Made by a program: the position numbers and the translations under genes. 64,000 bases of DNA, from positions 1 to 64,000 of the forward strand of contig CAKZLU010000023.1 of NCBI GenBank assembly GCA_937127245.1. The letters are read 5' to 3'. Positions 13,308 through 49,687 of this stretch are shown in pieces (the first letter of the stretch is position 1; the number at the start of each line of letters is the position of its first letter). The notes below the pieces were generated by a model, which had not been told where the DNA came from, did no database searches, and saw only the letters and a list, made by a program, of their open reading frames with translations. This DNA is from an uncultured Actinomycetes bacterium. GTDB lineage: Bacteria; Actinomycetota; Geothermincolia; Fen-727; JACVIW01.

Positions 13308-14045
13308 TTGGCGGAATACAGGATGACTTACCTCCAGCATCTGGAGGAGCTTAGAAGAAGAATCATAGTTTCATTCATCGCTCTTGCCTGCGGATTTGCG
13401 GTTTCCTGGTTTTTTGCCTGGGATATCCTTGATCTATTAAAAGGTCCAGCTGGCAACATAACTCTTCACTATTTAAAACCTATGGAACCTTTTTTGGTTC
13501 GATTCAAACTCGCGCTTTTCGGAGGACTTATCCTATCTTTCCCAGTGATAATATTCGAGGCGCTTGCGTTCGTTACCCCCGCGCTCAAGGCAAACGAGAA
13601 GAAATACACCATCATTGTTGTTTCTATGGTGCTCGTTTTCTTTTGCGGGGGTGTTGTTTTCGGTTACAAGTACATCATGCCAGTTGGGCTGAAGTGGCTT
13701 TTTGACCTTGCCGGCACTGAGATGAAAGCGGTCCTTTCCGCCGGCGAATACGTTAGTTTCTGTGGTTGGTTCATACTTGCTTTCGGACTTTCCTTCGAGA
13801 CGCCATTGGTGATTTGGATGCTCGTCGCTATGGGGGTGATGACACCCGAGCAGTTGCAGAGGCATTGGAGAGCTGCAGTGATGGTCATATGTGTTTTCGC
13901 GGCTATCGTGACACCCGATTGGAGCCCTGTCACGATGGTTTTGGTTGCGATTCCCATGATTCTGCTTTATTTGATAAGCCTCGGACTGGCTCGTTTTTCC
14001 GCGAGAAGAAAGATAGTCTCAAGCGAGCCCGCTTCAGGGACTTAA
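13308..14045 (+). CDS. tatC: Sec-independent protein translocase TatC
   Basis: MTYLQHLEELRRRIIVS, six TM segments, SFETPLVIWMLVAMGVMTPEQL, AIVTPDWSPVTMVLVAIPM. Confidence 0.95.
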   Translation: MAEYRMTYLQHLEELRRRIIVSFIALACGFAVSWFFAWDILDLLKGPAGNITLHYLKPMEPFLVRFKLALFGGLILSFPVIIFEALAFVTPALKANEKKYTIIVVSMVLVFFCGGVVFGYKYIMPVGLKWLFDLAGTEMKAVLSAGEYVSFCGWFILAFGLSFETPLVIWMLVAMGVMTPEQLQRHWRAAVMVICVFAAIVTPDWSPVTMVLVAIPMILLYLISLGLARFSARRKIVSSEPASGT

Positions 14046-14671
14046 GCCATTGGGCCCTTCTTGTTTTTCCGGCAGCCAAACACTACATTGAGGATTTGAA
14101 TCGCAGTGCTTGCGCATTCTTCCTCATTTTCGCACCAGGCTATCTTGGCATTGCCGTTCAGCGCTACCAGCGCTTCAAAGATGTTTTGATTTCCTCGTTT
14201 ATCAACAAAAGCGTTACCGTTTATGCAGATAAGGTCTGCTATGCGGACCACGCTTAATGCCGATTCTTTAAACTCACTCGGGTTAGCGCCGGCAATGAAA
14301 ACAGTGAAATCTGAGCGAATGAGAGGAATAGCACTGTTACTTTCTATTAAAACGGTTTCACAATCTTTGCACAGGGAATTGAGGCTTCCAATAGCGTGGG
14401 GCATGTTAGCCCCTATCGTGTCGATCCAGATGACCCTTTTCGCACCCGCCGCGACGTAGCGGGCGGTATCGGTTCCTGGTTGCCGAATGATATCCGGATC
14501 TTCTATTATTTCTCGGTCTGGGAAATAGTGTTCTCCGGCGCTTACCTTCACGGCGCAGTCGATTTTAAGCGCTTGGATTAGACGAGACGCGACCCTGGTC
14601 TTCCCGGATTTTTTGGAAGAACCCCCGACCGCGATAACGAATAAGTCAGCTTCTTTTGGGAATACGCTCAT
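14042..14671 (-). CDS. P-loop NTPase, MobB-like, encoded downstream of tRNA-Sec
   Basis: FVIAVGGSSKKSGKTRVASRLIQAL (Walker A); IWIDTIGANMPHAIGSLNSLCKDCETVLIESNSA; codirectional with the sel cluster. Confidence 0.65.
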   Translation of the reverse strand: MSVFPKEADLFVIAVGGSSKKSGKTRVASRLIQALKIDCAVKVSAGEHYFPDREIIEDPDIIRQPGTDTARYVAAGAKRVIWIDTIGANMPHAIGSLNSLCKDCETVLIESNSAIPLIRSDFTVFIAGANPSEFKESALSVVRIADLICINGNAFVDKRGNQNIFEALVALNGNAKIAWCENEEECASTAIQILNVVFGCRKNKKGPMA

Positions 14672-14855: not shown

Positions 14856-14951
14856 TGGCGGAGGTGCGTAAGAATCGAACTTACCTGGCGCCGGTCAAGA
14901 CGCCACAACGGTTTTGAAGACCGCGCCGCCCACCAGGACGGATACACCTCC
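14856..14951 (-). tRNA. selC: tRNA-Sec (anticodon UCA)
   Basis: GGAGGTGTATCC...GCGGTCTTCAAAACCGTTGTGGCGTCTTGACCGGCGCCAGGTAAGTTCGATTCTTACGCACCTCCG-CCA: long acceptor stem, anticodon loop ctTCAaa, long variable arm, T-loop GTTCGATTC, lies just downstream of selB. Confidence 0.93.
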
Positions 14952-14981: not shown

Positions 14982-16952
14982 TTATCTCAGTTTTCTGGCA
15001 TCCCCGATTCTCACGGTAATCTTTTCCCTGTCCATGTAATCGAGGAGCGGCAACGCATATTTCCTTGTTGTACCTAAAAGCTTTCTAAACTCGCTAACGG
15101 TAATGCCTTTGTCGCCCGCGGCGTTTTTCAAAACAGAGATCGCCATTTGAACCGCTTCGGAGGAGAAATAAATCTCGTGTGAGACTTTGACGAGCTTTCT
15201 TTCCCTTACCGCTTCATCAAGCAGGTCAATTATGTGGCTTTTTTGAAAACCGGTTTTTTCCGATATTTCCTTTATGTCGGGAGGCGAAAACATTGCCTGA
15301 GATATTTCTGAGCAGATTGTATCAAGGAGTTCTTTGTCTTTGCTCTCTAATCCCGTGCTGAAGCCGGGTTTTCGCGCGAGATTTCCCGAGATTTCAACTA
15401 TATTTTTTCTGACAAGCAGTTCTGTCAAAGCGTCGCAGACTGAAGGCTTTTCCCCAACAAATACCTTTTTTCTGAAGGTCTCAAGCGGCATACCGCCTGA
15501 TATAGGCTTTTGCTTGTGGTATTCTTCAAGAGTTTTTGTTGCCCGCTCAATTACTGAGTCCAGCGTGCCTCTTGAAATGAAAAGGGTTGCGGGGCTGATG
15601 GTGTTCATATTTGAACCGGGATGCTTTAAGGCGCGCTCTTGCGGTGTGGAAGCTGATCCCTTGCTCTTTAAGATAATTACCTCACCCTCTTTTAAACATT
15701 TTTCCATGCCTTCGGCTATGAGCTTAGCCGGAAATCCAGATTCGCGCGTGATTTGGGGAATCGTTGAGGGTTTTCCAATACGATTCAGAGAAATGAGAAC
15801 GACATCGGCGGGGTTGCGTTTCTCTAATTTGTGAAACGTGTCAAGCGCTTTCGGGTCTTTAGATTTATGTTTAGGGGGATGCGGGTCAATGATGATTCCG
15901 CCCCCGATTGTGGTGACGGGTGAATAACTTCGCAAAACGAACCTATCGCCTGAAAGGCATGCCGCATTATTTTCAAGCCTTAACTGCACTGGAAGGTTTT
16001 CACCTGGCTTTATCTCATCTGACTCTATAGGGTAAATCCTTCCGAGAATTTCTCTTGTCCCGTGATGGAACCTGAGCCTGGTTCCTCTTTTTATCGGTTT
16101 TTGCCAGTCTGGCAGTATTTTCACGCGCGCGTCGAGCATGTATGTCGGTTTCAATAATCCAGGCGCGGCAAGTACATCTCCTCTGGATAGCATTTCCTTT
16201 GGGATGCCGGGAATGTTGATCGCGACTCTTTCACCCGCGTAAGCCTCGTCTCTCGTCTTGCCGTGAACCTGTAAACTTCTAACTCTCACCTCTATTCCAT
16301 GCGGCAAAACCTCAAGTCTATCGCCCCCTTTAATTGTTCCGCTCCAGAGCGTCCCGGTGACGACGGTTCCAGCGCCCTTGATGGTGAAAGACCTGTCGAT
16401 GGGTATTCTCGGGGGTCGAGACCTGTCTTTTGTCTTTATTCTGGATGTAGCGTCTGCAAGTTCCTCTTTTAAGCGCTCCATTCCCGCGCCGGTTATTGCG
16501 GAAACGGGAACGATGGGTGAGTCTTCGAAGGGTCTTCCCTTTACAAGCTCCCTGATATCCTGGATGACAAGCTCAACCATTTCTTCGTCGACAAGATCTA
16601 TTTTTGTAATGGTGAATATAGCATCAGTGACTCCGAGAAACTCGAGTATCGCAAGATGTTCTTTTGTCTGGGGCATGACACTGTCGTCTGCCGCGACCAC
16701 CACTAAGGCAAGGTCAACGCCCGTTGATCCAGCCATCATGTTTCGTATGAAGTTCTCATGTCCCGGAACGTCAACTATTCCTGTTTTCGAGCCGTCCGGA
16801 AGAACAAAATGGGCAAACCCGAGGTCTATTGAGATTCCTCGCTCTTTTTCCTCCGGGAGCCTGTCGGTGTCAATCCCGGTCAGGGCTTTTACCAGAACAG
16901 TTTTGCCGTGGTCTATGTGCCCCGCTGTTCCTATGATGAAAGTCTTGTCCAT
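14982..16952 (-). CDS. selB: Selenocysteine-specific elongation factor SelB
   Basis: MDKTFIIGTAGHIDHGKTVLVKALTGIDTDRLPEEKERGISIDLGFA; C-terminal winged-helix domains; adjacent to selA and tRNA-Sec. Confidence 0.95.
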   Translation of the reverse strand: MDKTFIIGTAGHIDHGKTVLVKALTGIDTDRLPEEKERGISIDLGFAHFVLPDGSKTGIVDVPGHENFIRNMMAGSTGVDLALVVVAADDSVMPQTKEHLAILEFLGVTDAIFTITKIDLVDEEMVELVIQDIRELVKGRPFEDSPIVPVSAITGAGMERLKEELADATSRIKTKDRSRPPRIPIDRSFTIKGAGTVVTGTLWSGTIKGGDRLEVLPHGIEVRVRSLQVHGKTRDEAYAGERVAINIPGIPKEMLSRGDVLAAPGLLKPTYMLDARVKILPDWQKPIKRGTRLRFHHGTREILGRIYPIESDEIKPGENLPVQLRLENNAACLSGDRFVLRSYSPVTTIGGGIIIDPHPPKHKSKDPKALDTFHKLEKRNPADVVLISLNRIGKPSTIPQITRESGFPAKLIAEGMEKCLKEGEVIILKSKGSASTPQERALKHPGSNMNTISPATLFISRGTLDSVIERATKTLEEYHKQKPISGGMPLETFRKKVFVGEKPSVCDALTELLVRKNIVEISGNLARKPGFSTGLESKDKELLDTICSEISQAMFSPPDIKEISEKTGFQKSHIIDLLDEAVRERKLVKVSHEIYFSSEAVQMAISVLKNAAGDKGITVSEFRKLLGTTRKYALPLLDYMDREKITVRIGDARKLR

Positions 16953-16990: not shown

Positions 16991-18424
16991 TTAAGCGCTG
17001 GCTCTCCTATCGAGCGCTTTTAGAGCTTCCGCGATTTTCCCTACTTCCTCGTCTGTCACCGTTCTCATATCGAGAAGCAAAGAGTTTTCCCTTATTCTCG
17101 AAATAATTGGCGGATTGAATGAAATTAAGAAATTTTCAACTGCCGTGACGGAGAGAGATTTGTGTTTGACGGCAACGGTATAGGTCGGGATTTCAGCAAG
17201 TGGAAGGGAACCTCCACCGGGACGCGATTTATCCGGGGCTGTGGAATACTCGATATTGTGTATTTCCATTTTATCAAGTGTGCGCTTAAGCTTTAGAGCG
17301 CGTCTTCTGACTTTTTCCGTATCTTCCGTGAGCATCCCAAGAATTGGAATTGTCTTATAGGGGTTGGGAGAATACAGGTATTCGCGAAGTGTTGCTTCCA
17401 AAGCCGCCAGTATCATCTTGTCAATCCTTACGGCTCTTGCAAGCGGATTCCTTCTTATCCTTTCAACATAGACCGAATTGCCAGCGATAATGCCGGCCTG
17501 CGGGCCACCCAGCAGCTTGTCGGCGCTCATCGTGACAAGGCTCGCCCCTTGGGCGATGACCTGTCTGGGAGTGGGCTCATCCTTAAGACCGAAACTTGAA
17601 AGATCAACCAGCGCGCCCGAACCGAGGTCCTCCACGACGAGGAGGCCGTATTCTTTTCCGAGGCGGGCAAGTTCACCTATGCTGACTTCTTCAGTAAAGC
17701 CGACTATTCTGTAGTTGCTTTTGTGCACTTTCATTAGCAGCGCGGTTCTTTCCGTAATCGCGTTCGCGTAGTCGGCGATCCTCGTGCGGTTAGTTGTTCC
17801 TACTTCCACAAGAACAGCTCCGCTCTCTCTCATAATATCGGGAAGCCTGAATGACTCGCCGATTTCAATCAGTTCGCCTCTTGAGATGATGACCTCTTTA
17901 TCTTTGGCAAGGGTGGAAAGCACGATAAGAACGGCGGCAGCGTTGTTGTTGACCACGAAGGCTGACTCCGCGCCGCAGATTTCGCGCAGAATTGGCTCTA
18001 TATGCTGTTGTCTGGATCGCCTTTCTCCTTTCAGCAAGTCGTATTCCAGATTGCAGTAGCCTTCCGAAACGCGGGAGACAGCTTCGATTGCCCGGGGGGA
18101 AAGCGGGGCTCTTCCCAGATTGGTGTGGAGTATCGTGCCTGTTGCGTTTACGACTTTCCTTAACGAAGGCTCAACTGTTCGCAAGACCCTTTCAATAACC
18201 TTTTCAGCCAACAGGTTTATTTCAGCGACGGGGGGATTTGTTCCGCTATTCAGCGAATTGATGATAGTTTCTCTCGCTTCCCGCAAGACCTCTCTTGCCG
18301 ATTTGACAATAAGGTCTCTTGAGATGTCCTTCAGGTATTTAGTCCCAGCGATAGATTCCACAAGTTCATTGACCTGTGGAAGCGCTCTTAAAGCGATGTT
18401 TTTGGCGTCCTCTCGTTTTCGCAT
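16991..18424 (-). CDS. selA: L-seryl-tRNA(Sec) selenium transferase SelA
   Basis: VNATGTILHTNLGRAPLS, YCNLEYDLLKGERRSR, SADKLLGGPQAGIIAG; likely start at internal MRKRED (18424), which removes the overlap with yedF. Confidence 0.95.
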   Translation of the reverse strand: MRKREDAKNIALRALPQVNELVESIAGTKYLKDISRDLIVKSAREVLREARETIINSLNSGTNPPVAEINLLAEKVIERVLRTVEPSLRKVVNATGTILHTNLGRAPLSPRAIEAVSRVSEGYCNLEYDLLKGERRSRQQHIEPILREICGAESAFVVNNNAAAVLIVLSTLAKDKEVIISRGELIEIGESFRLPDIMRESGAVLVEVGTTNRTRIADYANAITERTALLMKVHKSNYRIVGFTEEVSIGELARLGKEYGLLVVEDLGSGALVDLSSFGLKDEPTPRQVIAQGASLVTMSADKLLGGPQAGIIAGNSVYVERIRRNPLARAVRIDKMILAALEATLREYLYSPNPYKTIPILGMLTEDTEKVRRRALKLKRTLDKMEIHNIEYSTAPDKSRPGGGSLPLAEIPTYTVAVKHKSLSVTAVENFLISFNPPIISRIRENSLLLDMRTVTDEEVGKIAEALKALDRRASA

Positions 18425-18434
18425 CGTGAAAAAA

Positions 18435-19037
18435 TTATATGGAAAGAATTTTATCCGCCGCAATCAAAAGGGAGAGAATCTCATACATGTTACCTATTTT
18501 TCCAACTTTAAGTTTTTCCCCAAGACCGTAGAAATCAAGACAGGTTCCGCAACAGATTATCTCCACTCCTTTTTGTTCCAGTGCTTTTAAATGTTCAACG
18601 GTATCTTCATTTTCTGTAGCGAGCCTAACGCCTGTGTTCATAAGCACAATTTTTTCGGGTGGATCATCGATTTCTGTGCAGGCAAACAAAAACGATTTCA
18701 TGAGAGTGTCTGAAAGCCTCTTGTCCCCCGTTCCCAGTTCATCCGTTTTTATGAAGATAACCGTGCTCTTTTTGGTTTCGTTTAGGCTTGCGCTCTTGGT
18801 TGTTTCCATTGTTTCAGAGGAGGAAGAAGGAGGTATGATCTTGATAAGAAAGCAGTTTTCGTGATCACTTACTTCAACATCGCATCCTCTAGATTTCGCG
18901 AAGCGGGAAACATTTTCCCTTGCTGCTTCATTGTCCACAAGGACGTTGAAAGGCTTATTCGTTTCGGCGAGTTTTTCTTTTGTCAGGATTACCGGTCTGG
19001 GGCAGGCAAGACCGCGGGCATCAATGTCAATAAGCAT
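18435..19037 (-). CDS. yedF: Selenium metabolism protein YedF (SirA/TusA-like N-terminus plus DsrE-like C-terminus)
   Basis: DIDARGLACPRPVILTKEKL; KIVLMNTGVRLATENEDTVEHLKALEQKGVEIICCGTCLDFYGL. Confidence 0.9.
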   Translation of the reverse strand: MLIDIDARGLACPRPVILTKEKLAETNKPFNVLVDNEAARENVSRFAKSRGCDVEVSDHENCFLIKIIPPSSSSETMETTKSASLNETKKSTVIFIKTDELGTGDKRLSDTLMKSFLFACTEIDDPPEKIVLMNTGVRLATENEDTVEHLKALEQKGVEIICCGTCLDFYGLGEKLKVGKIGNMYEILSLLIAADKILSI

Positions 19038-19043
19038 ATGCTC

Positions 19044-20090
19044 TTACCCCCCTTTCAAATGCATCTTTCCCGGAGGACCATCAAGGACAATCCCAATGGC
19101 TTTCGCTTCAGGGGAATCGCTTTCCTTAAGCCGGGAAAGCGCAGTTTCCGCATTTTCCTCGGGGATTGTGGCAAGAAGCCCCCCGGATGTCTGTGGGTCG
19201 TTGAAGAGGTCCAGAAGTATCTGATCGATTTCTTCTTCGGGATGGGTGAATTCCGCGCAATAGTCTCTGTTTCTGAAGAGTCCCGCCGGTAGCATTCCTT
19301 CCTCTGCGAGACTGAGCGCTTTTTCGAAAACGGGAATCTCTTTAAGCCATATTTCTGCGGACACATTACTCGCTTTTAAAAGTTCGAGCATGTGGCCTGA
19401 AAGCCCAAAACCGGTAACATCCGTGCAGGCGGTCACGCCGGATGTTTTAAGTATCTCTGAGGCGTTACGGTTTAGCCTGCACATCGAATCTATAGCTTCT
19501 TTTATCTCATCCTCGGTTTGAAATCCGGCTTTGAGTGCGGTCGTGAGTATCCCGGTGCCGAGTGGTTTGGTGAGTATAATTATGTCCCCTGGCTTGGCCC
19601 CTTCTATTTTCATGAGTTCGTCAGGGCGTGAGATTCCCGTCACTGAAAGACCGTATTTCGGCACTTCGTCGTCTATTGTGTGTCCGCCAACGATGAGCGC
19701 GTCCGCCTCTTTTACTTTCTCGTATCCACCTATGAGAATCTCAAAGAGGATGTCAAGGGAAATTTCACAGGGAAAAGCGACAATGTTCAGCGCAATAAGC
19801 GGACGCCCACCTTTCGCGTATATATCGCTTAAAGCGTTAGCTGCGGCAATGTTTCCGTATAGGCGTGGTGAATCCACTATGGGTGGAAAAAAATCGAGCG
19901 TTTGTATAATGACCAGGTCATCCCTCAGCTTGTAGATTGCCGCATCCTCTTTGCCGCTCATTGAGGAAAGCAGCATTGGATGAGCGGTCTGTGGCATGCG
20001 CGATAGCAATTCATCGAGATCACACGGACCCATTTTGGCTGCTCACCCAGCCCCTTTTGAATATTCAGTAAGTCTTTTGATATTGTCCAA
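19044..20090 (-). CDS. selD: Selenide, water dikinase SelD, predicted Sec-containing (in-frame UGA at 20043-20045)
   Basis: The called ORF starts late (MGPCDLDELL). Upstream in frame: TTG GAC AAT ATC AAA AGA CTT ACT GAA TAT TCA AAA GGG GCT GGG TGA GCA GCC AAA ATG GGT = MDNIKRLTEYSKGAG-U-AAKMG; SD-like AAGGGGG upstream of TTG. Confidence 0.92.
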
Positions 20091-20480
20091 GCTTAACCCC
20101 CTTCGTGGCGCCGTTTTCTTGATTGGATAGGGGCGAGCAACATGAGTTCGGAATGGAAAAATAATTCAAAAAGCGACTCAAACCCCGTTTTTTGAGAATC
20201 ATTATATAATCATAAGCGTTTCTGTGTCTGAACTCTTATTATCCCATGAGTGTTTACCGTAAAGCCTGTGTAGGCGTTCATATAGGATAAATGCTTTCAG
20301 GTTATTGCGAGCGATGTTTGGTTTCCATAAAGGGATATGTTGTATCATTCTGCGCAAATACTATGTTGTTTGGATTTCCAAAATGGATATGTCAAATAAT
20401 TTTCCACAGGTGAAATTCTCGTAGGGGAATATCCGCCGGACACGGCGTTTTCGATTTAGGTTTCAATTGCGACGGGAGGG

Positions 20481-22850: not shown

Positions 22851-23034
22851 AGTATGAGTCCTGAGAGTTATGAACTTTCGGGACAAAAGAGGTTTAAAAA
22901 GAGCCTTTTGCTGTCATTTTCCCTATCTTTGGGCACGCTCATCAATGGGGCAAATTTTTTTCATGTGGTATAGACTTTTTACGCCCAGTGGCATTTGAAT
23001 TGAACCAGTGGAAATTGTTTACGGGAGGTATTAT

Positions 23035-24729
23035 ATGAAAAGACCCCCAAAAGAGAAGAATCATAGAAACGGCAGAGCGAGGATTTTCTTGACAGTAGCC
23101 ATTCCCGTTTTTCTCCTTGCAAAGGCTATATTGGGGATCTTTCGGGCGCTCAAAGGATACTCGAAAGAGAAGGATGAGGGTTTTCCTTTTCAGAGGAGAG
23201 TTTCTTTCTATCAAAAGCACAAGAGAATAGTACAGACAGGTTCGGGCATTCCCATAAAGGTGAGCCTTTTCATTCCCATGGGGGAAGGCCCCTTTCCAGC
23301 CGTAATAATGGTTCACTCATGGGGACTATGGAGGATTCAATGCGATTTTCTTTACGCGCCGCTTTTTGCGCGAAATGGTTACGTGGTCATGACTTATGAC
23401 TGCAGGGGTTGGGGCACCTCCGGCGGAGAGGTATCCTGTGCCGCACCGGACAGGGAAATCTGCGATCTCGAAGACCTGATCACCTGGTTGACCGAGCCTG
23501 ATTCCGGGGTACCTGTTGATCCAGAGAGAATAGGCATCGCCGGGGTTTCTTACGGTGGAGGACACTCCTTCATGATTGCCACGCGGGACAGCAGGATAAA
23601 AGCGGCCGCCCCAATGAACGGTTGGACAGACCTCAATTTTTCGCTCATGCCAAACAACTGTTGGAAGGCGGTATGGAGCCTGTTGCTTTTCTTTACCGCC
23701 TTGTTTGGAATTAAGCTTAATCCAAAAAACGACCTTGTTCGGTGGCTTAAAGAGGTTGTTTCCAACCGCGATTTGAACGGGGTCAGAAACGAGCTTGAGG
23801 AAAGGTCTGTAGTGGGTTTGCATGAGCGCGTGAACTGCCCGGTATTTGTAGTACATTCCTGGAATGATGACCTTTTCGAGCCTAATCAAATACTTGATTT
23901 CTATTCCAAACTGGAGGTTCCCAAAAGACTGTTTATGACAAACGGCATTCACGGATTTGATGCGGGAAGAGGCACTCTGATAGTGCCGAATGATATTTGG
24001 AGTGAGGTGCTTGACTGGTTTGATTACTGGCTCAAAGGGGACGAATCCGCGGGAGAAAACAAGCCCGAGGTTATGTATTATTGTCCCTGGACAGGGGCGA
24101 TGCAAAGCGCAGATTCATGGCCGCCGGATGGTGTTTCCGATTTCACTTACTACTTGAGAGGGTTTCAAGACGGTGCTCTTGTTAAGGGTAAGCTTCTGCA
24201 CGATCCTCCGGACGGGGCGAAAGAGTCGGCTGAATTGATCATCAACAACACCGTTTTCAGTTTGCACACTTCTGGAATCCCGGTAATTCGAACCAGAGTT
24301 TTCAAAGGCGGACCTCTTCCCACTGTTCCGTTTTCACTTAAAGGGGACAGCGCCTCTTACACGTCTCATGCATTTTTGGAGGACACTGTGCTTCTGGGTA
24401 TACCCCGCGTGAGTGTTTACGTCTCTTCCTCGTCGCATGAGTGCCAGTTGAACGCGTTTCTCTATGATTTGTCTCCGTCGGGTTTGGGCAGGCTTGTCAC
24501 CCACGGATGCGTTATGAAAAGCGACATGGTTTCTCATGAAGCGACACGTCTTGATTTTTCGCTGATTGGATGCGCTCATCGGTTCAGGGCCGGGAACAGG
24601 ATGAGGCTTTTGATAACCGCCTGTGACCCTCTTTTCGTGATGCCATCAAGGGTGCCGTCAAGGTACTTAATTCATCACACGAAAGAATATCCGTCTCAAG
24701 TTGTGTTACCCCTTATGCCTCAACCATGA
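23035..24729 (+). CDS. CocE/NonD-family (X-Pro dipeptidyl-peptidase-like) alpha/beta hydrolase
   Basis: VMTYDCRGWGTSGG, IGIAGVSYGGGHSFMIA, C-terminal jelly-roll-like domain (VYVSSSSHECQLNAFLYDLSPSG); ATG at 23035 preceded by GGGAGGT. Confidence 0.85.
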   Translation: MKRPPKEKNHRNGRARIFLTVAIPVFLLAKAILGIFRALKGYSKEKDEGFPFQRRVSFYQKHKRIVQTGSGIPIKVSLFIPMGEGPFPAVIMVHSWGLWRIQCDFLYAPLFARNGYVVMTYDCRGWGTSGGEVSCAAPDREICDLEDLITWLTEPDSGVPVDPERIGIAGVSYGGGHSFMIATRDSRIKAAAPMNGWTDLNFSLMPNNCWKAVWSLLLFFTALFGIKLNPKNDLVRWLKEVVSNRDLNGVRNELEERSVVGLHERVNCPVFVVHSWNDDLFEPNQILDFYSKLEVPKRLFMTNGIHGFDAGRGTLIVPNDIWSEVLDWFDYWLKGDESAGENKPEVMYYCPWTGAMQSADSWPPDGVSDFTYYLRGFQDGALVKGKLLHDPPDGAKESAELIINNTVFSLHTSGIPVIRTRVFKGGPLPTVPFSLKGDSASYTSHAFLEDTVLLGIPRVSVYVSSSSHECQLNAFLYDLSPSGLGRLVTHGCVMKSDMVSHEATRLDFSLIGCAHRFRAGNRMRLLITACDPLFVMPSRVPSRYLIHHTKEYPSQVVLPLMPQP

Positions 24730-47041: not shown

Positions 47042-47365
47042 AGGGGGGGAGATGCGGTCTTTTTCATGATACTCGGGCATGATAAGAACGCATTCAGGAG
47101 GCCGGTCACATTAGTGGGTTATAGCCTGGACACTTAGAGATGTCGTGAAAGAAATTTTCTGGTTGGATGTCTAAAGTAGCACCTCAAGTTTGCCCGAATC
47201 TTTAGACCTTTCTCCCGAGTTTTGCCCAGAGAAAATGAACCAAGAGACAGGCGCCTGACCATCTATTGCACATGCCCTAAACCGGATTTTCTCTCCTCTT
47301 TTCGGCCAAACGGTTTCTCATCTATCTTTCATCTAATTGTTATCGCGAAAGCCAGCTTTGGTGTA

Positions 47366-48103
47366 TCAGTGAGTTTTTTTCGCTCGTTTTATTGCATGCT
47401 TGTGGGCGAGATTCTCGACTGAGTCATCGAGCGCTTCGATATCCCGCCCGGGGTATGTCCTCTTGAGTGCTTTACGTATGAGAAAATCCGCTAGTTCGGG
47501 ATTCTTTGGCAGGAGTGACCCATGCAGATATGTTCCAATTGCTCCGAGGTGAACGGCTCCTTCAGTCTTGTCCTCGCCGTTGTTTCCGTACCCTACGATG
47601 ATTTCTCCGAGAGGACGCTCGTTTTTACCGAGATATGTTTTCCCGGAATGATTTTCGAATCCCACCACGGTCGTTTTGCGGCCATCAAGGCATGTCTCAA
47701 CAAAGACATTGCCTATAAACCTCTTGCTGCCAGCGATGGTATAAGCATCAAAGACGCCAATTCCTGGAAGTTCCTCTCCTTCCGCGGGACGATAAAAATT
47801 CCCGAATAACTGGTAACCACCGCATATGACAAGCGCGCATGCGCCTTGCTCGATTTCGCGTCTGATAGTCTCTCCCTTTGTCTCATACAGATCGTGGCTC
47901 ACCATTACTTGCTCTTTGTCCTGTCCTCCGCCCATGAAGAATATGTCGTATGCGCCGGGTTCAACTTTATCTCCGAGACCAAGGCTCTTGACCTCGACAT
48001 CTATGCCTCTCCAAAGGCAGCGTTTAGCGAGCGCTATTACGTTACCCCTGTCCCCGTATATGTTCATTAGGTCAGGATAAAGATGGCAAATAACCAGTTT
48101 CAT
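47366..48103 (-). CDS. gatD: Lipid II isoglutaminyl synthase, glutamine amidotransferase subunit GatD
   Basis: LVICHLYPDLMNIYGDRGNVIALAKRCLWRGIDVEV; ALVICGGYQLFGNFY; GFENHSGKTYLG; GTYLHGSLLPKNPELADFLI. Confidence 0.93.
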   Translation of the reverse strand: MKLVICHLYPDLMNIYGDRGNVIALAKRCLWRGIDVEVKSLGLGDKVEPGAYDIFFMGGGQDKEQVMVSHDLYETKGETIRREIEQGACALVICGGYQLFGNFYRPAEGEELPGIGVFDAYTIAGSKRFIGNVFVETCLDGRKTTVVGFENHSGKTYLGKNERPLGEIIVGYGNNGEDKTEGAVHLGAIGTYLHGSLLPKNPELADFLIRKALKRTYPGRDIEALDDSVENLAHKHAIKRAKKTH

Positions 48104-49492
48104 TCATTCCTCCCAGTAGGGAGTGACATACCCTTTTTTTGAAAGGATTCTGCGTGCTTCAAGCATTGCGGTATAAGTGGGAACGATATAGACAGTCTCG
48201 TTCTTTCCCGCGGTGCAAAGCAACCGCTCCATGGCGGTCCCGATTTCGGGTTCGATTGATAGACAATCAACGCCCGTGTCAGCGTATTTGACCCTTAACG
48301 CCATGTCCCACGCCCTTATTCCCGCGCAAATCACATTCGATAGCTTTCCTTTGAGGTTCTCAAAATCAACGTCCCATATCCATGAAACATCTCTTCCGTC
48401 CGCTATGTTGTCGTTCAGGGCAAAAACGACGTTCAATTTAGCATCAAGATTGCTCAGAGTCCTTATTACTTCGTTAAAGCCTGCCGGATTCTTAGCAAGA
48501 ATCATGACGAGCTTTCTTCCCTCGATTTCAATAGACTCAACCCTTCCGAACGCCGCTTTGAATTTCTCGATTGAGTTGGTAATGACGCGAAGATCAACGC
48601 CGAGAGTAAGACATACAGCCGCAGCGCCGAGCGTATTATAAACGTTGTATAGCCCGGGGAGAGGAATTGAAATTTCGACCGCTCCTGCGGGAGTCTTTAT
48701 CAGGCATTTCGAACCCTCGAAACTTTTCAGCTCAACGCTTTCGGCGGAAACATCCAGCGGGGGTCTTTTCGCTCCGCATTTTGGGCAACGGTAGTCACCC
48801 AGGTGTCCAAAAATGTGATATCTGTACTCGAGCCTGGTGTCGCAGTTCGAGCAGTGTTTGCTATCAGCTGCGTGTTCCAGTCCCTCAAGCGAATAAATAT
48901 CTGTATTTATACCGAAGTGAATTACCCTGCATCTGAGGTTTGACCCAATTGATGAAACGAGAGGGTCATCGGCGTTGAGTATTACGGTAGAGCCGACCCC
49001 GAGTTTCTCAAGGGACATTTTTAATTTTTTCGCGAGTGTATCCAGTTCCCCGTAGCGGTCGAGCTGATCTCTGAAAAGATTGTTTATAAGCACGACGCGC
49101 GGGTTTGTCTCTTCTATCGCTTCGGGAAGTGTCGCTTCGTCCACCTCGAACAACCCGAGTTCCTTTGATCTTTTAAGTTCTCGTATTTTTTCCCGGACCA
49201 GCGCGGAGGCTATACCAGACAATAGGTTTGCCCCGGTTCTGTTATGGACGAAGGATATGTTAGCCCTCTTAAGCGTGGAAGCGATGAGCGCGGCGGTGGT
49301 TGTCTTGCCGTTTGTTCCGGTAACGAGGACACATCCAATGTTTAAACCCGAAACGACTTCCCGGACGAAATGCGGGCGGAAATACCTGATTATTTTTCCA
49401 GGCAAGGTTGTCCCGCCGCCCGCTTTAGTGGACCTGACGATACCACCGATTATTTTTCCAACAATCATCCATATTTTGGTTTTAGTCTTCAT
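48104..49492 (-). CDS. murT: Lipid II isoglutaminyl synthase subunit MurT
   Basis: CVLVTGTNGKTTTAALIASTLKRA; VLINNLFRDQLDRYGELDTLAKKL; CSNCDTRLEYRYHIFGHLGDYRCPKCGAKRP; abuts gatD. Confidence 0.93.
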   Translation of the reverse strand: MKTKTKIWMIVGKIIGGIVRSTKAGGGTTLPGKIIRYFRPHFVREVVSGLNIGCVLVTGTNGKTTTAALIASTLKRANISFVHNRTGANLLSGIASALVREKIRELKRSKELGLFEVDEATLPEAIEETNPRVVLINNLFRDQLDRYGELDTLAKKLKMSLEKLGVGSTVILNADDPLVSSIGSNLRCRVIHFGINTDIYSLEGLEHAADSKHCSNCDTRLEYRYHIFGHLGDYRCPKCGAKRPPLDVSAESVELKSFEGSKCLIKTPAGAVEISIPLPGLYNVYNTLGAAAVCLTLGVDLRVITNSIEKFKAAFGRVESIEIEGRKLVMILAKNPAGFNEVIRTLSNLDAKLNVVFALNDNIADGRDVSWIWDVDFENLKGKLSNVICAGIRAWDMALRVKYADTGVDCLSIEPEIGTAMERLLCTAGKNETVYIVPTYTAMLEARRILSKKGYVTPYWEE

Positions 49493-49687
49493 ACAAAGGA
49501 TATGTTATCCGAAATCGCGTTTTGGGGGCCAGGGCGGTAAACGGTTGCATCGCTTTTTTCAATTAGGGTTGAAACACGACCATGAAGATTTAAACTTAAT
49601 GGATGGAGGACGCTTTTTTGATCCGGTGACGACGTTCAAAAAATTTGCTGGCGCGTTTAAGGAATCCAAACATGCTGTTCTTGCTTT

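Follow-up and report, generated by a model that had tools for sequence, protein, structure and literature searches.

How far the selD gene extends, and what it encodes, is the question raised by this locus of an uncultured Actinomycetes bacterium, since calling of open reading frames and homology to known selenophosphate synthetases place its 5' end differently. The window (the whole stretch of DNA analyzed, 64,000 nucleotides) carries on its minus strand a frame that starts at a TTG codon (20088-20090), passes one internal TGA (20045-20043) and ends in a TAA at 19044. Calling with translation table 11 returns 19044-20033 only, a protein of 329 aa that begins at the ATG inside KMGP and loses the 19 N-terminal residues of SelD. 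The minus strand reads TTG GAC AAT at the start and GGG GCT GGG TGA GCA GCC AAA ATG GGT CCG around the interruption. With the TGA translated as selenocysteine (Sec), the N-terminus is MDNIKRLTEYSKGAG-U-AAKMGPCDLDELL... and residue 16 of the 348 aa encoded by the gene (19044-20090) is Sec. Re-reading the strand, we found the coordinates, quoted sequence and protein length given by an earlier sequence-only reading to be correct. The Shine-Dalgarno-like AAGGGGG that it had reported before the TTG is also present (20097-20103, minus strand, 6 nt upstream). A start-type codon (TTG, GTG or ATG) occupies the position of the TTG in 10/10 SelD genes of the window's order, mostly after a similarly spaced purine-rich sequence.

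The full-length product matches TIGR00476 (selD, equivalog) with 360.9 bits (5e-108; cut-off 125 bits) over SelD residues 6-313. This alignment begins at residue 6, which places the segment ahead of the TGA within the SelD family. In a search of the PDB, the alignment with SelD 3u0o starts at residue 3, with RLTQYSHGAGCGCK opposite RLTEYSKGAGUAAK, and that with 2yye at residue 8 of SelD. The 19 codons upstream of the called start are thus homologous to SelD N-termini. The TGA (20043-20045, minus strand) falls in the catalytic Cys column, as the sequence-only reading had claimed, and a Lys follows three residues on (Sec16 and Lys19). UxxK is the motif given for selenophosphate synthetase in a 2026 inventory of prokaryotic selenoproteins (PMC13188914). 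The called frame does lack the catalytic N-terminus, the truncated form having neither Sec/Cys nor the Lys, and the corrected call restores a catalytic residue that gene calling otherwise removes.

A set of 108 distinct SelD relatives was assembled from two sources, named genome contigs and genomes related to that of the window. In the UGA column the codon is TGA in 80/108 and TGC or TGT (Cys) in 28/108, with no other codon found (0/108). Such recurrence of TGA in the same alignment column among distinct homologues means that the in-frame TGA is not a chance occurrence. The maximum-likelihood SelD tree requires nine changes between Sec and Cys. Within the window's order, TGA is present at the same codon in 8/10 SelD genes, and two genomes (G008 and G010) encode Cys. 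The SelA match in the first of these (L140) contains one TGA and one TAG, which may reflect a frameshift, an assembly error or decay.

Downstream of the UGA we identified a candidate for the apical hairpin of a bacterial SECIS element, (G)GGTC-CGTGT-GATC(T) at 20017-20031 (minus strand). In the RNA it takes the form GGUC-CGUGU-GAUC, with the stem 12 nt after the UGA and the loop after 16 nt (starting at the 17th nucleotide). Counting from the UGA, codon +5 is GGT (Gly) and codon +6 is CCG (Pro) in 27/27 distinct Sec genes compared from the same phylum. Elsewhere in these genes GGT accounts for 101/860 Gly codons and CCG for 117/408 Pro codons; at seven other conserved Gly sites several codons occur, unlike the invariant +5 GGT. 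The invariant bases form a GGUC-CGNNN-GAYC hairpin. Sec genes of Bacillota have GGA-CCG-GGT-GTC, so that the U-A pair becomes A-U, and two of them, with GGG..GCT, have G-C in its place. These base changes are compensatory across replacement of Asp by Val or Ala. The third base of the Gly codon and the second base of codon +8 are paired (U-A, A-U or G-C) in 59/80 Sec rows, compared to a mean of 37.5 in shuffles; 0/20000 shuffles reach 59, in a test that ignores relatedness. Among rows with the GP motif, this pair forms in 43/47 Sec vs 4/8 Cys rows. It is not formed in four Bacillota or Chloroflexota rows with GGC..GCC. In many Chloroflexota rows AGY stands in place of GGN and the hairpin fits less well; there the SECIS may be placed elsewhere.

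The published bSECIS model specifies a loop of 3-9 nt, a stem of at least 4 bp, a G in the first two loop positions and a spacing of 16-37 nt (PMC13188914). The window hairpin has this layout (4-bp stem, 16-nt spacing, G second in the loop), and the loops of its relatives mostly have G second and G or U third, matching the same model (PMC13188914). The model's energy limit is -7.5 kcal/mol or lower. For the window hairpin, segments of 39-41 nt gave -5.5 and -7.0 kcal/mol, both short of that limit, and a 50-nt segment gave -10.4 kcal/mol with a different fold. Folding of the single sequence 3' of the UGA yielded no significant structure relative to shuffles (z 0.4 to -1.4), and Rfam had no match in the region after the UGA. 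The case for a SECIS therefore rests on comparative evidence. This is where the argument for a Sec-containing SelD is weakest, the hairpin being weak and not significant by energy alone; its conservation and covariation across sequences are as expected for a bacterial SECIS. We raise, as a doubtful idea, a minimal SECIS specific to SelD, GGUC-CGNNN-GAYC inside the GPxDL codons at the shortest allowed spacing (16 nt), whose weakness here would let Sec insertion sense the level of Sec-tRNA and autoregulate selenium use. In this proposal the hairpin's conservation is a direct observation, and the regulatory role is speculation.

Two other genes of this genome have in-frame TGA codons. Both encode FdhA-type molybdopterin oxidoreductases (formate dehydrogenase alpha-type; L129:10741-12840, plus strand, and L130 near 6822, plus strand) with TGA at the canonical Sec site of FdhA (UHxP), here HCARLUHSPTVAGL. 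As in selD, a hairpin follows the TGA. That of the FdhA genes, a different enzyme, has a GGUCU loop and is far more stable (-17 to -18 kcal/mol, vs about -6 kcal/mol for selD). Their sequences mark them as two further predicted selenoproteins. Searches of the genome with PF02662 (4 copies), PF00374 and PF01206 returned no further TGA-containing genes. Other TGA-interrupted frames in the window are without selenoprotein-like context by inspection: one (47336-49504) has the appearance of two neighbouring genes separated by TGA-ATG. The CGGVU motif apparent in L131 looks like a Shine-Dalgarno sequence ahead of a gene start.

A sequencing or assembly error could in principle have turned the TGC or TGT of an ordinary Cys-SelD into TGA, the species being represented by a single assembly and the order including the two Cys-encoding members noted above. 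We regard such an error as very improbable given the prevalence of TGA in the order's SelD genes, the hairpin codons common to all of the same-phylum Sec genes compared, and the two additional TGA codons at canonical Sec sites in the same genome. Further, both Cys genes of the order are without one of the conserved hairpin pairs (GGC..GAC in one and GGT..CAC in the other).

Directly beside selD are genes for Sec synthesis and decoding, all downstream and on the same (minus) strand. These are yedF, for a TusA-DsrE sulfurtransferase-like selenium metabolism protein (18435-19037; TIGR03527, 2e-65), selA, for L-seryl-tRNA(Sec) selenium transferase (16991-18463; TIGR00474, 5e-176), selB, for the Sec-specific elongation factor with its C-terminal winged helices (14982-16952; TIGR00475, 1e-112; PF09106 and PF09107), and selC, the tRNA-Sec with anticodon TCA (14856-14951; ARAGORN, and Rfam RF01852 with 78.8 bits). 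The profiles, ARAGORN and Rfam confirm the earlier statement that SelA, SelB and tRNA-Sec are encoded next door, and yedF is an addition to it. Thus, the trait genes for Sec decoding (SelA, SelB and tRNA-Sec) are all present in the genome. A small P-loop protein with weak, below cut-off similarity to MobB is encoded directly 3' of the tRNA-Sec (14042-14671, minus strand). Lacking is a second SelD, intact and free of UGA or otherwise, in this 94.85%-complete genome. At 26-32% identity, the next matches appear to be paralogues with the AIR-synthase fold, consistent with the ThiL/HypE/PurM fold.

This setting bears on whether the TGA could be a nonsense mutation that leaves selD a pseudogene, or a gene started at the ATG at 20033 that yields a shortened protein lacking both Lys19 and the catalytic residue. 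The table-11 call (19044-20033) starts where such a product would start. The resulting SelD would, however, have neither Sec/Cys nor Lys, whereas the codons upstream are conserved as protein and preceded by a start codon and a Shine-Dalgarno-like sequence. The rest of the selD frame, selA, selB and tRNA-Sec are intact, and the genome offers no alternative SelD for Sec synthesis; we give a nonsense mutation hardly any credence. Genome-wide reassignment of UGA (e.g., to Trp or Gly), compatible with the single codon taken alone, is the least probable explanation of all, as ordinary window genes terminate at TGA (e.g., the PepX-like peptidase at 23008-24729, with a Pfam domain reaching residue 565 of 573), a canonical tRNA-Sec(UCA), SelA and SelB are present, and the SelD column elsewhere holds only Cys or TGA.

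We consider it nearly certain that selD encodes a 348-aa selenophosphate synthetase predicted to use Sec as its catalytic residue via the in-frame UGA. This is in agreement with the sequence-only reading, which had called selD itself a selenoprotein gene, and draws on homology, conservation of the UGA column, the machinery and the sole SelD of the assembly, together with the frame, the start position and the conservation and covariation of the hairpin. We predict that the ribosome starts at the TTG at 20090 and that, at codon 16, SelB with Sec-tRNA-Sec, guided by the short hairpin, would insert Sec rather than allow termination at the UGA. The Sec16/Lys19 SelD could then supply selenophosphate to SelA. 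Since SelD makes the selenophosphate for SelA, its synthesis would need its own product, forming a positive loop. We infer Sec insertion, the enzymatic activity of SelD and this loop from the sequence features described.

By 2006 counts (38 SelD of 285 selenoproteins), Sec-containing SelD was one of the top two bacterial selenoprotein families in abundance, and it occurred, among others, in organisms then placed in Actinobacteria (PMC1794560). Sec occurs in 19% of the SelD genes in a set of prokaryotic reference genomes, always at this position (PMC4561486), and a 2026 review lists the family as the second most expansive among prokaryotic selenoproteins (PMC13188914). The finding is correct but ordinary, because Sec-SelD has long been known and is widespread (PMC1794560, PMC4561486, PMC13188914). 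The window gene is an ordinary member of a family known for two decades, in an uncultured Actinomycetota lineage. It resembles known members in having a predicted Sec in the catalytic Cys column, Lys three residues on, an in-frame UGA, a candidate bSECIS downstream and sel machinery, and differs only in lineage (an Actinomycetota order) and in the TTG start of this species. With Cys-SelD (e.g., E. coli SelD; PDB 3u0o) it shares the family and the active-site context GAGC..K. The Cys forms have Cys for Sec and no UGA, and their downstream codons do not keep the GGU-CCG..GAC hairpin. The selD finding opens no new mechanism; it extends Sec-SelD to further members, from a deep group of Actinomycetota, in which synonymous sites carry a clear SECIS signature.

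The presence of tRNA-Sec in related genomes was judged by score, which is 72-78 bits in genomes with the Sec trait vs 46-50 bits in those without; the latter matches are probably other long-armed tRNAs. SelD, SelA and tRNA-Sec were not detected in a genome of the same genus (G001, 86% complete), in which both FdhA genes have TGT (Cys) at the Sec site (L146 and L147). Nor were the three detected in a 99%-complete genome of the same order (G004), where the FdhA examined has TGC (Cys) at this site (L148). Judged from these sequences, the Sec trait appears to have been lost in the same-genus genome, with matching Cys-FdhA, and the same-order genome likewise looks like a case of loss. Loss of selenoproteins, or their replacement by Cys forms, between sister species is a described pattern (PMC1794560). 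Genomes with Sec, with Cys-SelD and lacking the trait stand side by side in the window's order, a neat example of turnover of the Sec trait. A further molybdopterin oxidoreductase of ~1050-1130 aa, for which we found no counterpart in the genome of the window, is encoded in three related genomes (G005, G006 and G007) with TGA in HARL/I-U-H, a few kb from the tRNA-Sec (L149:12829-16056, minus strand; L150:12147-15539, minus strand; L152:2360-5500, plus strand).
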